DNA of 64,000 nucleotides. Origin: an uncultured Desulfobacteraceae bacterium. GTDB lineage: Bacteria; Desulfobacterota; Desulfobacteria; Desulfobacterales; Desulfatirhabdiaceae. A program made the position numbers and the translations under genes. The notes under the pieces were generated by a model that was not told the DNA's origin, did not search any database, and worked only from the letters and a program-made list of their open reading frames with translations. Each line of letters opens with the position of its first letter. The stretch's first letter is position 1. This document shows, in pieces, positions 1 through 4,272 of the stretch. The stretch is taken from the NCBI GenBank assembly GCA_903953895.1, contig CAJBLH010000070.1:49839-113838 (forward strand), in the 5' to 3' direction.

Positions 1-913
1 GAATCGGCATGACGACAGCACCAGAAAAAATGCCAAGCACAAAGGCGGCGGCGGCGTAAAGCCCTCGGCTCCAGGCCGCGTGAAACGAAAACAGCCCCGG
101 GCCGAAGCCGGAAATCAAAAAGACGGCTGCCAGAACCCGGACCAGTGGTTTTGCGAGCAGATACAGCTCGACCGGGGTCAAAACCAGCCGTTCGGTCGTT
201 GAAAACGTAACCCGGCGCATGGTTTCATCCGCAGTCATGCCGTTTTTCAGAAACCGGGTGATATCCTCAGCCCGGATCGGCCCCCATACCACTTCAAATC
301 CACAGAGTTGTTTCACTTTCTGAGCAGACACTCCGGTTGCAGATAGCTGCGGCAGAACAAGCTGGCGGTGACGAACGAGCTGGGTCAGGTTGCAGCGGAC
401 AGCGCGATCGGCTACTTCCTGGCTGGAGAACGTTTTTTTGCCGGCAGCGCACCACACATTGATTCCCCGGGTGTCGCAGACCATGATCCATGCATCGACC
501 GATCCCAACTGCCGGCGAAGGGTGTCGAAACTGAGTTTGTAATTGGCTGTCACCAGAACCGGCGAATCCGGACCCGGAGAGCCGGCGCCGTAGATCCCCG
601 GAGCGACCTGATAGGCATCACGGAAAATTCCCAGCCTGACTCGGAAGGCGCCCAGCCAATCCCGGCCGGTCAGCCGGGTGTCGATTATCGGAACCCGGCC
701 CGTTGGTGTTTCCGTAAAATTTCGAACAAATTGGCAGATGGTGTATCCCGGCATTTCATGAGGGCCGGCAGGCTTTGTAATCGGAGAACCACAGCAGGGA
801 ATGTCTTTCGGTGCGGCAGCCGGCAGAGGAACAAACGGGCTCGATATTTTTTCACAGCCTGCGGGTGCGCCTTGTGTGCAGCAGTCCGGGCGGCAGGAGC
901 AGGGATTTGTCAT
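1..913 (-). CDS. hgcA: HgcA mercury-methylation corrinoid protein (3' end beyond window edge)
   Basis: HgcA is the corrinoid methyl carrier that passes a methyl group to Hg(II), with the ferredoxin HgcB as electron donor. The frame is open for 304 codons from the ATG at 913 to the window edge. A Cys-rich N-terminus (C5, C7, C11, C12, C20, C40, C41) precedes the soluble corrinoid domain. The diagnostic cap-helix motif NVWCAAGK spans residues 152-159, with C155 as the cobalt-coordinating cysteine. Other family signatures are VLVTANYKLSFD, LPQLSATGV and CGFEVVWGP. Hydrophobic membrane segments begin near residue 257 and run to the edge, as expected for the membrane-anchored C-terminus. A GGGAG Shine-Dalgarno sequence sits about 9 bases before the ATG. 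The ArsR-family gene lies 77 bases upstream on the same strand, so the two are probably cotranscribed. hgcB would be expected just left of the window. Family assignment is very firm; activity in this organism is inference. Confidence 0.96.
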   Translation of the reverse strand, partial: MTNPCSCRPDCCTQGAPAGCEKISSPFVPLPAAAPKDIPCCGSPITKPAGPHEMPGYTICQFVRNFTETPTGRVPIIDTRLTGRDWLGAFRVRLGIFRDAYQVAPGIYGAGSPGPDSPVLVTANYKLSFDTLRRQLGSVDAWIMVCDTRGINVWCAAGKKTFSSQEVADRAVRCNLTQLVRHRQLVLPQLSATGVSAQKVKQLCGFEVVWGPIRAEDITRFLKNGMTADETMRRVTFSTTERLVLTPVELYLLAKPLVRVLAAVFLISGFGPGLFSFHAAWSRGLYAAAAFVLGIFSGAVVMPI

Positions 914-990
914 GTTCTTTTCTCCCGAATCATCTTGTTTTTGGGATTCAGCGGTGATGAAAGTATCGGCAATGAGGTGTTGTCAATCGA

Positions 991-1314
991 TTATACGGTC
1001 AATTCGTCGATACCCTGCCGGAATCGTTCCAGCACATCCTTGTTCAGACAGTAACAGGTTCGGGGGCCGTCCACATTGCCCTGTATCAATCCGGCATTTT
1101 TCAAACACTTCAGATGCTGGCTGACCGTCGACTGGGCCAGCGGCAGCATCTCCACAATATTGCCGCAGATACAGCCGTCCATCGATCGGAGGTGCTGGAT
1201 AATCCGGACCCGCGCCGGATGTCCCAGTGCCTTGCAAATCCGAGCAAAATCAACTATATTCAAGTTGTTGGACCCGGAAAAGGCTTTTTCCGGATGCGGA
1301 GAAACCTGTATCAT
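991..1314 (-). CDS. ArsR/SmtB-family metal- or thiol-responsive repressor upstream of hgcA
   Basis: A winged-helix repressor of 107 residues, the usual ArsR length. The HTH reads LAQSTVSQHLKCLKNAGLI (about residues 59-77). A C-x-C pair (C48, C50) sits where thiol-metalloid-sensing ArsR proteins carry their alpha-3 ligands, and a second pair (C87, C89) lies in the wing. The start at 1314 has AAGGAG six bases upstream, and that Shine-Dalgarno sequence overlaps the end of a 14-bp inverted repeat, the probable autoregulatory operator. It is the first gene of a leftward unit with hgcA. ArsR-type regulators are known beside hgcAB in several methylators. Whether this one senses As(III), Hg(II) or something else cannot be told from sequence. 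Confidence 0.93.
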   Translation of the reverse strand: MIQVSPHPEKAFSGSNNLNIVDFARICKALGHPARVRIIQHLRSMDGCICGNIVEMLPLAQSTVSQHLKCLKNAGLIQGNVDGPRTCYCLNKDVLERFRQGIDELTV

Positions 1315-1321
1315 ATCGACT

Positions 1322-1358
1322 CCTTTTTATCGTATTTTTACGATATACGATAAAAAGG
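1322..1358. promoter_or_regulatory. Perfect 14-bp inverted repeat: probable ArsR operator
   Basis: Arms CCTTTTTATCGTAT (1322-1335) and its exact reverse complement (1345-1358) are separated by 9 bases. The element covers the -10 region and runs to the Shine-Dalgarno sequence of the ArsR gene, the usual place for an autoregulatory ArsR operator. In RNA it could also fold and hide the ribosome-binding site. Confidence 0.8.
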
Positions 1359-1368
1359 CTGGCGTCAA
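1340..1368 (-). promoter_or_regulatory. Sigma-70-type promoter of arsR-hgcA
   Basis: On the minus strand TTGACG (1363-1368) is followed after exactly 17 bases by TATCGT (1340-1345). The -10 lies inside the inverted repeat, so repressor binding would block polymerase. Matches are 5/6 and 4/6. Confidence 0.65.
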
Positions 1369-1550: not shown

Positions 1551-2564
1551 TTGGAATATGCAGCTAAAATTACCGGAACAGGCTCGGCCTTTCCCCAGAA
1601 CCGGGTCTCAAATATAGATATTTCTGAAAAACTGGCGCTATCCGGAATCGAAACAAACGATTCGTGGATACGGGAACGAACCGGGATTGCCGAAAGACGC
1701 ATGTCCATGCCCGGAAATTCGGAAGAACACAACTCGTCTTTAGGGCTTGCCGCTGCCTGGAACGCCTTGAAGATGGCAGAAAAAACCCCTCTGGATATCG
1801 ATCAGATCATCTATTCCACCTGTACACCAGATACCATCCTGCCGTCAACCGCCTGCTGGCTGCAGCACAAGCTGGGAGCCGCCAAAGCCTGGGGAATGGA
1901 TTTGAATGCCGCCTGCTCAGGCTTTATCTATGGTCTGAGCATTGCCGATCAGTTCATCTGTTCCGGCAAGGCCAAAACCACATTGGTGATCGGCGCCGAA
2001 GTCCTGAGCTCCATCATCAACTGGAGCGACCGCTCCTCTTGCATTCTGTTCGGAGACGGGGCCGGGGCAGCCGTTGTCGAGCGCACTCAGGCGACCTCGG
2101 ATCAGCGCATTCTTTCCACCCATCTGCTCTCCGACGGCGCTCTCTGGGAAATGCTGCATGTTCCTGCAGGCGGATCGGCCCTGCCGGCCACACCCGAGAT
2201 AGCTTTGCAGCATCTTAATAAAATCCAGATGAATGGTCGGGAAATATTCAAGGTTGCCGTTCGAACCCTCAGTAGTTTTGCACTGAAGGCTTTGAAAAAA
2301 AACCAGATGACGGTGGATATGCTGGACTGGTTCATTCCCCATCAGGCCAATTTTCGAATTATCGAAGCGGTGGCCAAACGGCTGAATCTGCCCATGGAAA
2401 AAGTCCTGATCAATGTGGACCGCTATGGAAACACATCCTCTGCGACTGTACCGACCATGCTGGATGAGGCGGTTCGGGACGGCCGGATCCAAAAAGGTCA
2501 GACCGTTCTTCTGGATGCTTTCGGCGCCGGTCTCACCTACGGGTCCGTGCTTCTGAGATGGTAA
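1551..2564 (+). CDS. fabH: 3-oxoacyl-ACP synthase III (FabH-like)
   Basis: A thiolase-fold condensing enzyme of 337 residues; FabH joins an acyl-CoA starter to malonyl-ACP to begin fatty-acid synthesis. The complete Cys-His-Asn triad is visible: C122 in NAACSGF, H264 in IPHQANFRI and N294 in YGNTSSATVP. The glycine-rich end GAGLTYGSVLLRW is typical. The start is TTG at 1551; the nearby GTG at 1541 is in another frame and soon hits a stop. An AGGAG sequence lies about 15 bases upstream, rather far. A UbiB-like gene follows 10 bases later, so the two look like an operon. With no other fab genes nearby, a specialised FabH homologue (secondary lipid or quinone-linked) is possible. Confidence 0.9.
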   Translation: MEYAAKITGTGSAFPQNRVSNIDISEKLALSGIETNDSWIRERTGIAERRMSMPGNSEEHNSSLGLAAAWNALKMAEKTPLDIDQIIYSTCTPDTILPSTACWLQHKLGAAKAWGMDLNAACSGFIYGLSIADQFICSGKAKTTLVIGAEVLSSIINWSDRSSCILFGDGAGAAVVERTQATSDQRILSTHLLSDGALWEMLHVPAGGSALPATPEIALQHLNKIQMNGREIFKVAVRTLSSFALKALKKNQMTVDMLDWFIPHQANFRIIEAVAKRLNLPMEKVLINVDRYGNTSSATVPTMLDEAVRDGRIQKGQTVLLDAFGAGLTYGSVLLRW

Positions 2565-2574
2565 TTTCACATCT

Positions 2575-4272
2575 ATGCTGAGCATCCGGAAAATCGGCGT
2601 TCTGGGAAGAACCTACCGTCACCTGAACCGGTATCGCCAGATTCTGGCAATCCTGTTCAGCTACGGATTCGGCGAAGTCATCGAACTTCTCAGAATCGAT
2701 CAGTATCTGGATATCGGTCTGCAGATGATTTCGAAAAACCGTGGAGAGCGCGTGGAAAAACTCTCCCGCGCCGAAAGAATCCGAATGGCCATCGAAGAGC
2801 TTGGGCCGACGTACATCAAGCTGGGCCAAGTGCTTTCCACCCGCCCGGATCTGATTCCGGCCGAGTTCATCCTGGAGCTGTCCCGGCTTCAAGACAATGT
2901 TCCGCCCTTTGGTTTCTGTGAAACCGAAAAAATCATTCAATCCGAATTTGGCGTACCCATCGATGAGATATTTGATTTTCCGGATAAAACACCGGTGGCG
3001 TCGGCATCCATTGCCCAGGTTTATCGGACCGTATCCCGGGACGGGGAACTGCTGGCCGTCAAGGTTCAGCGGCCGGGCATCCGGCGGATAATCGAGGTCG
3101 ATCTGGAAATCATGCTTCATCTGGCCATGCTGATGGAGCGCCATATCGAAGAATTCGCTTTGCACCGCCCGGTTCGCATCGTGGAAGAATTCGCCAAAGT
3201 GCTTGAAAACGAAATCGATTTTACGCTCGAAGCAGCCAGCATGGAGCGGATCGCCGCGATGTTTCTGAATGATCCGGCAGTGTATGTTCCCAAAGTGTAT
3301 CGCGACAAATCCTGTGCAGTGGTGCTGACCATGGAAATGGTTGAAGGCATTAAAATCACCCACATCGAAGCTATTGAAAAGGCCGGACTGGATCGAAAAC
3401 TGTTGACGGTAAGGGGGGCGGATGTCTGTTTGAAACAAATTTTCCAATACGGATTTTTTCATGCCGATCCCCATCCCGGCAATATCTATGCGCTGGCGGG
3501 GAATGTGATCTGTCTGCTGGATTTCGGAATGGTCGGCACCGTAGACCAAAGAACCCGCGAAGATATCGTCGAGCTGGTGGACAGTATCGTCCACCATCAC
3601 CCGGCCCGGGCCGCCCAGGTGCTTCTGAGAATTACCGAATGGGATAAGGAGCCCGATTTGAGATCGTTTGAAAAAGATGTGTCTGAATTCATGGGGATGC
3701 ATCTTTTCAAGCCTCTCCGGGATATCAAAATCGGCAGGCTGCTTCAGCATCTTCTGGAGATTTCAGCGGAACATCGCCTGCGGATTCCGGCGGACATCTT
3801 TCTGATGTTGAAGGCCCTGGGAACGGTGGAAGGGATTGCCATGGTGCTGGATCCGGAATTTGACATGATATCACACGCCACCCCGTATATTCAAAAAGTC
3901 AAACTGGCCCGCCTGCATCCAGAAAGAATCGCCGGGGATGCGATGCAGTTGGCGTCTCAATTCATGGATTTTCTGGGCCAGTTTCCGCAGGACGTTCTGG
4001 AGATTGCCCGGCTCCTTCGCCAGCAGAAGCTGACAGTGAAAATTGAACAGACAGGGCTCTCAACACTTCTTGCCACCCAGGATCAGATCAGCAACCGGAT
4101 CGCCTTTTCCATCGTCATCGCATCGCTGATTATCGGCTCGGCCCTCATCGTCATTTCCGAAACACCGCCGCTGGTTTACGGGATATCTTTCATCGGCTTC
4201 ATCGGTTTTATCGCAGCCGCCCTGATGGGAATATGGCTTCTGGTTGCCATCATCCGAAAAGGAAAACTATAG
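2575..4272 (+). CDS. ubiB: UbiB/ABC1/AarF-family atypical kinase, membrane anchored
   Basis: A 565-residue protein of the UbiB (ABC1/COQ8) family, atypical ATPases/kinases needed for isoprenoid-quinone synthesis or lipid homeostasis. Signatures present are the KxGQ-containing stretch YIKLGQVLSTRPDLIP (near residue 85), the catalytic-loop-like HADPHPGN and the DFG-like LLDFGMVG. Two hydrophobic helices at about 510-562 form the usual C-terminal membrane anchor. It starts 10 bases after fabH and probably shares its promoter. The gene ends 10 bases before the convergent PilB-like gene. In a menaquinone-using anaerobe the exact substrate is unknown; the family assignment is secure. Confidence 0.9.
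   Translation: MLSIRKIGVLGRTYRHLNRYRQILAILFSYGFGEVIELLRIDQYLDIGLQMISKNRGERVEKLSRAERIRMAIEELGPTYIKLGQVLSTRPDLIPAEFILELSRLQDNVPPFGFCETEKIIQSEFGVPIDEIFDFPDKTPVASASIAQVYRTVSRDGELLAVKVQRPGIRRIIEVDLEIMLHLAMLMERHIEEFALHRPVRIVEEFAKVLENEIDFTLEAASMERIAAMFLNDPAVYVPKVYRDKSCAVVLTMEMVEGIKITHIEAIEKAGLDRKLLTVRGADVCLKQIFQYGFFHADPHPGNIYALAGNVICLLDFGMVGTVDQRTREDIVELVDSIVHHHPARAAQVLLRITEWDKEPDLRSFEKDVSEFMGMHLFKPLRDIKIGRLLQHLLEISAEHRLRIPADIFLMLKALGTVEGIAMVLDPEFDMISHATPYIQKVKLARLHPERIAGDAMQLASQFMDFLGQFPQDVLEIARLLRQQKLTVKIEQTGLSTLLATQDQISNRIAFSIVIASLIIGSALIVISETPPLVYGISFIGFIGFIAAALMGIWLLVAIIRKGKL

Follow-up and report, generated by a model that had tools for sequence, protein, structure and literature searches.

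A candidate ArsR-type, thiol- or arsenic-responsive switch on the mercury-methylation genes hgcAB of an uncultured Desulfobacteraceae bacterium

Introduction

Methylmercury is made by HgcAB, and why cells keep these genes and what induces them is the question addressed here. The closest described system is arsR-hgcAB of Pseudodesulfovibrio mercurii ND132, in which, according to the accessible parts of two reports, an ArsR gene lies upstream of hgcA, and its product regulates hgcAB and responds to arsenic (PMC10349881; PMC13362967). Other methylators likewise carry ArsR-like genes and the arsenic-methylation gene arsM close to hgcAB, and in 112 genomes the gene immediately upstream of hgcAB is a putative regulator (PMC7438021). 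The locus described here lies in a 64,000-nucleotide stretch, hereafter the window, of contig C70 from the genome of an uncultured Desulfobacteraceae bacterium (G000:C70:49839-113838). At its left edge an ArsR-family gene, which we label hgcR, precedes hgcA and hgcB, and a 23-bp predicted operator precedes hgcR. This arrangement is like that of ND132 and of the surveyed methylators. Unlike here, however, a switch common to arsM and ArsP_1 permease genes is not mentioned in the accessible text on ND132, and neither operator nor regulator sequence is given in that of the survey (PMC10349881; PMC13362967; PMC7438021).

Thus, an ArsR gene upstream of hgcAB, an arsenic response in ND132, and arsR and arsM near hgcAB are already known. 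As far as our literature search goes, the operator and its sharing with arsM and ArsP_1 genes are new: the search, which left subscription literature mostly uncovered, found no paper on an HgcR operator or on a switch common to hgcAB, arsM and an ArsP_1 permease. With a probability of roughly three in four, we read the hgcR-hgcA-hgcB cluster as one in which an ArsR-type, thiol- or arsenic-responsive switch acts on mercury methylation.

Results

HgcR and its predicted operator

The elements of the putative switch, all on the minus strand of the window, are the following.

991..1314, minus: hgcR, ArsR-family regulator of 107 residues with two CxC pairs (PF01022, 44.6 bits over a cut-off of 22; NF033788, 71.4 bits over 55)
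1329..1351, minus: predicted operator ATCGTATATCGTAAAAATACGAT, one mismatch to the motif ATCGTNTATCGTNNNNTNACGAT, 14 bp before the hgcR start
1322..1358, minus: perfect inverted repeat that encloses the operator, with 14-bp arms on either side of a 9-bp spacer, read from the sequence
1340..1345, minus: predicted -10 box TATCGT, the middle repeat of the operator, 17 bp from the -35 box
1363..1368, minus: predicted -35 box TTGACG, with a 17-bp spacer to the predicted -10 box

HgcR has the winged helix-turn-helix of ArsR proteins. Its AlphaFold2 model has a predicted local distance difference test score (pLDDT) of 80.9, and its hits in the PDB are SrnR, CadC, CzrA and As(III) repressors. The thiol pairs C48/C50 and C87/C89 that the original prediction had pointed out are indeed present, among cysteines at positions 27, 48, 50, 70, 87 and 89. 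Residues 48-50 and 85-90 are strands in the model, and such strands would be expected to lie next to each other in a winged-helix protein. Nine ArsR genes upstream of hgcA, namely, eight from a set of 57 relatives plus L011, were used to build an HgcR profile, and they have 29 invariant columns in common, including all four of these cysteines.

The CxC at 48/50 occupies the usual ArsR place and is also found in 18 of 20 background ArsRs, whereas CYC at 87-89 occurs in all 19 rows of the HgcR clade defined below and in none of the 20 background rows. In ArsR1-type As(III) repressors the CxC lies in helix alpha3. HgcR resembles these repressors in fold, winged helix-turn-helix, place of the CxC and position as first gene of the operon, but its clade has a second CxC (CYC) on the last strand (class names as in the accessible part of PMC9213503).

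The operator of the hgcR promoter, ATCGTnTATCGTnnnnTnACGAT, lies behind the -35 box and over the predicted -10 box. The motif ATCGTNTATCGTNNNNTNACGAT was written from the common upstream sequence of the nine hgcA-upstream ArsR genes, with eight sites defining it (own genome, G001, L011, G044, G009, G010, G024 and G053). When both strands were read, an operator with at most two mismatches was found in all 15 hgc-linked HgcR loci examined, including L032 (no mismatch, 214 bp before the start) and L022 (two mismatches). A TTGACA-like box (at least 5 of 6 positions) stands 11-22 bp ahead of the operator in 14 of the 15 loci; the zone searched was 8-24 bp before the operator, and the same stretches shuffled 2000 times gave a mean of 1.2 loci and a highest count of 7.

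The predicted operator is found almost only at hgcAB and arsenic genes

The own genome (5.47 Mb) holds a single operator match at up to two mismatches, the one before hgcR. Genomes of the phylum and of the order were scanned at no more than one mismatch, since chance matches would swamp a wider scan at two. First, 395 phylum genomes gave eight matches, all of them 571-1114 bp upstream of an hgcA match, against two for a reversed-pattern control. Second, 360 order genomes gave 50 matches in 47 genomes, with three for the control. Forty of these 50, in 39 genomes, are followed 236-814 bp further along their contig by a listed hgcA. Some hgcA places were missing from the listing used, and G540 was settled from its locus, where hgcR and hgcB surround a damaged hgcA, which brings the matches at hgcAB to 41 of 50. 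Three more stand beside an HgcR gene at or near a contig end (G026, in which HgcR runs off, and G506 and G724, 27 and 202 bp from the end). In G616 and G558, arsM is the first gene after the operator, starting 16 bp from it, and an HgcR gene comes next; in G476:C2, which has an HgcR relative, an ArsP_1-family permease gene begins 13 bp behind the operator (PF03773, 165.2 bits; no NCBIfam cut-off was reached). The last three matches (G463, G732 and G476:C9) stand at nothing of the kind, a number equal to that of the control.

A few of these loci look damaged or doubled. In G540 (L248:1869-2585) operator, hgcR and hgcB are intact and the hgcA frame has no corrinoid cap region, through decay or an assembly fault; L235 (G679) has a short, broken-looking HgcR frame beside a partial hgcA; and G590:C76 and G590:C233 each carry an operator and a partial hgcA, either two copies or assembly redundancy.

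Such a distribution could in principle reflect an ordinary hgcAB to which the ArsR gene and the repeat have no functional relation, having merely stayed next to it through common descent; close relatives have much sequence in common, and some of the matches come from the same genus. We hold this to be very improbable. Genomes that played no part in writing the motif supply 35 of 41 hgcAB sites for the order and 6 of 8 for the phylum, HgcR-adjacent HgcA proteins are dispersed on the HgcA tree, the HgcR clade mixes hgc- and arsM-linked members, and the motif is retained at hgcA in genomes with no hgcR nearby.

These last are the f29 genomes G035, G476, G569 and G553, in which the operator lies 236-308 bp before the start of the hgcA profile match and no HgcR match was found in the 3.9-5.5 kb around it. 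Three of them (G035, G476 and G553) have one unlinked HgcR relative each, scoring 98-104 bits; in G569, as in G509 and G533, the genome search matched no HgcR relative. In G553 and G476 the unlinked relative adjoins an ArsP_1-like permease gene, that of G553 being recognised by its likeness to the G476 permease rather than by a family scan, and operator-like sites with one or two mismatches precede both genes. In G035 only a three-mismatch site was found and no ArsP_1-like permease was seen at the locus. Thus, hgcAB may share a regulator in trans with a putative organoarsenical permease.

HgcR relatives at arsenic loci and the thiols they keep

A search of the 395 phylum genomes with the HgcR profile (E 1e-15, at most 12 candidates scored per genome) gave 12 matches of at least 109 bits, the next scoring 69.6. 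Eight of the 12 adjoin hgcA. The remaining four come from genomes in which hgcA was not matched, and they stand in arsenic loci: L184, L185 and L187 adjoin arsM, and L188 precedes arsD-arsA-acr3-type genes. Overall, five HgcR relatives away from hgc genes adjoin arsM and one arsD-arsA-acr3; the five arsM and the arsD pass their NCBIfam cut-offs, and the cut piece of acr3 at L188 scores 225 bits against a cut-off of 282.8. A search of the own genome for ArsM gave no convincing candidate; the closest, 33% identical to the query, is a methyltransferase frame of 202 residues with few cysteines.

In a tree of 15 hgc-linked, 4 ars-linked and 20 background ArsR rows, the 19 HgcR rows form one clade (support 95/93). 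A single hgc-linked clade is rejected (approximately unbiased test, p-AU 0.00019), and hgc-linked L022 and L167 group with arsM-linked L184 and L185 (support 100/99); two arsenic-linked rows sit on long branches and their exact place is unsure. Because the clade mixes hgc- and arsM-linked rows and a single hgc clade is rejected, the tie of the HgcR family to hgcAB probably arose or changed repeatedly. Judged from sequence, HgcR is more than a neighbour of hgcA, as it belongs to a distinct ArsR clade with a predicted operator of its own.

The cysteines were also followed in the HgcR proteins beside operators. Of the 58 matches from both scans (those of the own genome and G010 being in both), 37 loci were read and yielded 32 HgcR proteins, two of them at the arsM loci L216 and L217; the remaining five comprise four without HgcR and L235, with its short frame of 67 bits. 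The strict pattern CxCG is found in 30 of the 32 and CYC in 28; read singly, both the CxC and C89 are kept in all 32. Of the four paired cysteines, HgcR here has all four, the clade mostly three or four and two distant relatives two. Clade members thus mostly keep at least three thiols, the number that a putative S3 site for As(III) would require.

These data bear on what HgcR may sense. One alternative is that it senses S-adenosylhomocysteine (SAH), or methyl-group status, as SahR does, arsenic acting only indirectly. The study of the ND132 regulator by Gionfriddo et al. (2023, Applied and Environmental Microbiology, AEM) reportedly found a response to SAH too. Furthermore, Proteobacteria have SahR proteins that regulate methionine genes (PMC4239095), and the title of PMC11588087 names S-adenosylmethionine as the methyl donor of HgcAB. 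The thiols of the CxC and C89, however, are kept throughout the operator-side proteins, and the relatives away from hgc genes stand at arsM, arsD-arsA-acr3 and ArsP_1 loci rather than at methionine genes, that of G035 being beside neither. We therefore consider SAH sensing unlikely. A second alternative, a sensor of Hg(II) or methylmercury that induces hgcAB on mercury exposure in the manner of mer systems, would suit both the thiol pairs and a target that is the mercury-methylation pair, but the non-hgc relatives are mostly at arsenic genes, and to our knowledge hgcAB is not induced by Hg in the methylators tested. No MerB match was found in the own genome, although the search control matched nowhere either, so that absence is not shown. 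Mercury sensing seems to us distinctly improbable.

Identity of hgcA and hgcB

The remaining features of the cluster are given below, all on the minus strand, with window positions unless a contig is named.

1..913, minus: 5' part of hgcA, residues 1-304 of 396 (NF040863, 416.3 bits; full frame in L006)
743..913, minus: Cys-rich N-terminal tail of HgcA, residues 1-57 (CSC, CC, CC), ending at PGY, read from the sequence
437..460, minus: cap-helix motif NVWCAAGK with the predicted cobalt-ligand Cys155 (motif scan)
1..172, minus: start of the HgcA transmembrane domain, hydrophobic segments from residue 248 (Kyte-Doolittle scan)
G000:C70:49257-49547, minus: hgcB, 96 residues, outside the window (NF040864, 124.6 bits over a cut-off of 99)

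The original prediction had taken the frame from 913 to 1, open to the window edge, for an HgcA with the NVWCAAGK motif, its cobalt-ligand cysteine and the membrane domain, and had proposed to search it with HgcA profiles and to look for hgcB to the left. This reading holds. The frame encodes 304 residues, carries Cys155 and contains the start of the membrane domain, and its product matches the HgcA equivalog model NF040863 (E 7.8e-125, over a cut-off of 275 bits). Since the window begins at C70:49839, the contig extends further left, where the complete hgcA of 396 residues (L006:11562-12752) ends at G000:C70:49561 and an intact hgcB lies 13 bp after its stop. Hydrophobic segments within residues 248-396 make up a C-terminal transmembrane domain, and the cap motif is identical in 138 of 147 HgcA loci read. 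HgcB has cysteines at 20, 23, 26, 30, 50, 53, 56, 60, 73, 90, 95 and 96, that is, two 4Fe-4S motifs, Cys73 and C-terminal cysteines. In ND132, by the accessible part of PMC7305189, the HgcB cysteines are at 20, 23, 26, 30, 50, 53, 56, 60, 73, 94 and 95 and the cap cysteine of HgcA is Cys93. The two systems are thus alike in cap cysteine, membrane domain, HgcB cluster cysteines, Cys73 and C-terminal cysteine pair, and unlike in that the HgcA of this locus begins with a Cys-rich tail of 57 residues and has its cap cysteine at 155 (PMC7305189).

The grouping with carbon monoxide dehydrogenase corrinoid subunits (the corrinoid iron-sulfur protein, CdhD-CdhE) that would have spoken against HgcA was rejected, the PRK04165 model scoring 75.8 bits against a cut-off of 306. 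Two further matches to PF03599, the CdhD family, above the Pfam cut-off lie on contig C61 of the same genome. The grounds on which the original prediction would have been refuted are thus absent. A PF03599 piece on C36 was rejected as a second HgcA; this protein of 208 residues (L003:1249-1875, G000:C36:20018-20644) has an Fe-S motif CGVCGLGNC and a C-terminal CdhD-type domain without the cap cysteine motif, and its gene adjoins those of a 4Fe-4S protein and a CobW-like GTPase, both judged by eye. From its gene content, the organism is probably a methylmercury producer, as had been predicted. The HgcA model exceeds its cut-off in 23 of the 57 relatives and in 2 of 7 genomes of the genus (G000 and G001), own genome included in both, and at E 1e-60 it matches 117 of the 395 phylum genomes and 149 of the 360 order genomes.

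The Cys-rich tail of HgcA, which the original prediction did not mention, has cysteines at 5, 7, 11, 12, 20, 40 and 41. A tail with at least two cysteines ahead of the core was found in 74 of 147 loci read, and a CC pair in 60. The survey covered 147 of 153 loci, six without a matched cap motif being dropped (L031, L123, L166, L173, L174 and L176); L007 and L042 are one locus and L017 and L168 one contig, and tail lengths are rough owing to the choice of the first start. Between the own gene and L042 the ratio of nonsynonymous to synonymous substitution rates (dN/dS) is 0.29 for the tail and 0.18 for the core, which suggests that the tail is under constraint. It is tempting to guess that the tail might pass metal on through its thiols, by analogy with the C-terminus of HgcB; our literature search found no paper on it.

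Around the cluster, judged by eye, a KASIII/FabH-like gene (window 1551-2564, plus strand) is divergent from hgcR, with a UbiB-like kinase gene (2575-4272) behind it. A rhomboid protease frame (L006:10533-11402) runs on the hgcB strand and overlaps the end of that gene; it is not conserved in the congener L007 and is for that reason not counted as part of the cluster. Regulators of further kinds were seen by eye before hgcA elsewhere, namely, MarR-like (L021 and L041), HTH/WYL-like (helix-turn-helix; L033) and AbrB-like (L026); hgcAB seems to swap regulators.

Discussion

The proposed switch would work as follows. The genes hgcR, hgcA and hgcB likely form one operon, and the predicted role of HgcR is that of a repressor of its own promoter: it would occupy the predicted operator, which covers the predicted -10 box, and so exclude RNA polymerase. 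Binding of arsenite, or of a metal with a like affinity for thiols, to the cysteines of HgcR would likely release it; HgcA and HgcB would then be made and mercury methylated. Because the operator is nearly exclusive to hgcAB and arsM or ArsP_1 genes, and the relatives away from hgcAB mostly stand at arsenic genes, HgcR is likely a thiol- or arsenic-responsive repressor common to mercury and arsenic methylation. This would suggest arsenic as the likely inducer of mercury methylation. Arsenite or methylarsenite is the first inducer candidate, since the non-hgc relatives are mostly at arsenic genes and in ND132 hgcAB is under arsenic-dependent control by an ArsR (PMC10349881).

Several observations weigh against this reading. 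First, the operator at hgcA is a minority feature: it was found in 39 of the 149 order genomes with hgcA, or 40 if G540 is counted, and in 8 of the 117 of the phylum sample. Second, the presence of HgcR on the HgcA tree needs 11 changes, of which at least six are forced, so that HgcR is not a fixed partner of hgcA; one of the 11 may be spurious, as L017 is labelled opposite to L168 on the same contig. Other ArsR types stand directly before hgcA in L076, L094, L138 and L172. Third, the thiols vary: C87 is lost in 4 of the 32 operator-side HgcR proteins, arsenic-linked L187 lacks C50 and L188 lacks C48, although both retain CYC, and the unlinked f29 homologues retain only two cysteines (G035 and G476) or three (G553). 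The inducer could also be SAH or another thiol reagent. Finally, arsR genes away from hgcAB have been described and other regulation proposed, in the accessible part of PMC12953829.

A bolder extension places hgcAB in an ancient arsenic-methylation regulon, with one repressor family and one operator serving hgcAB, arsM and an ArsP-type permease; the native job of HgcAB would then concern arsenic or a like metalloid, methylmercury being a by-product. We regard this idea as tentative and rather doubtful.

A predicted 23-bp operator confined almost entirely to hgcAB and to arsenic-methylation or permease genes offers a direct, testable handle on the induction of mercury methylation. It would predict which methylators are switchable, with arsenic as the first inducer to try, and it could serve as a DNA marker in metagenomes. 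Mercury and arsenic methylation would thereby be linked through one regulator family, beyond the single case of ND132.
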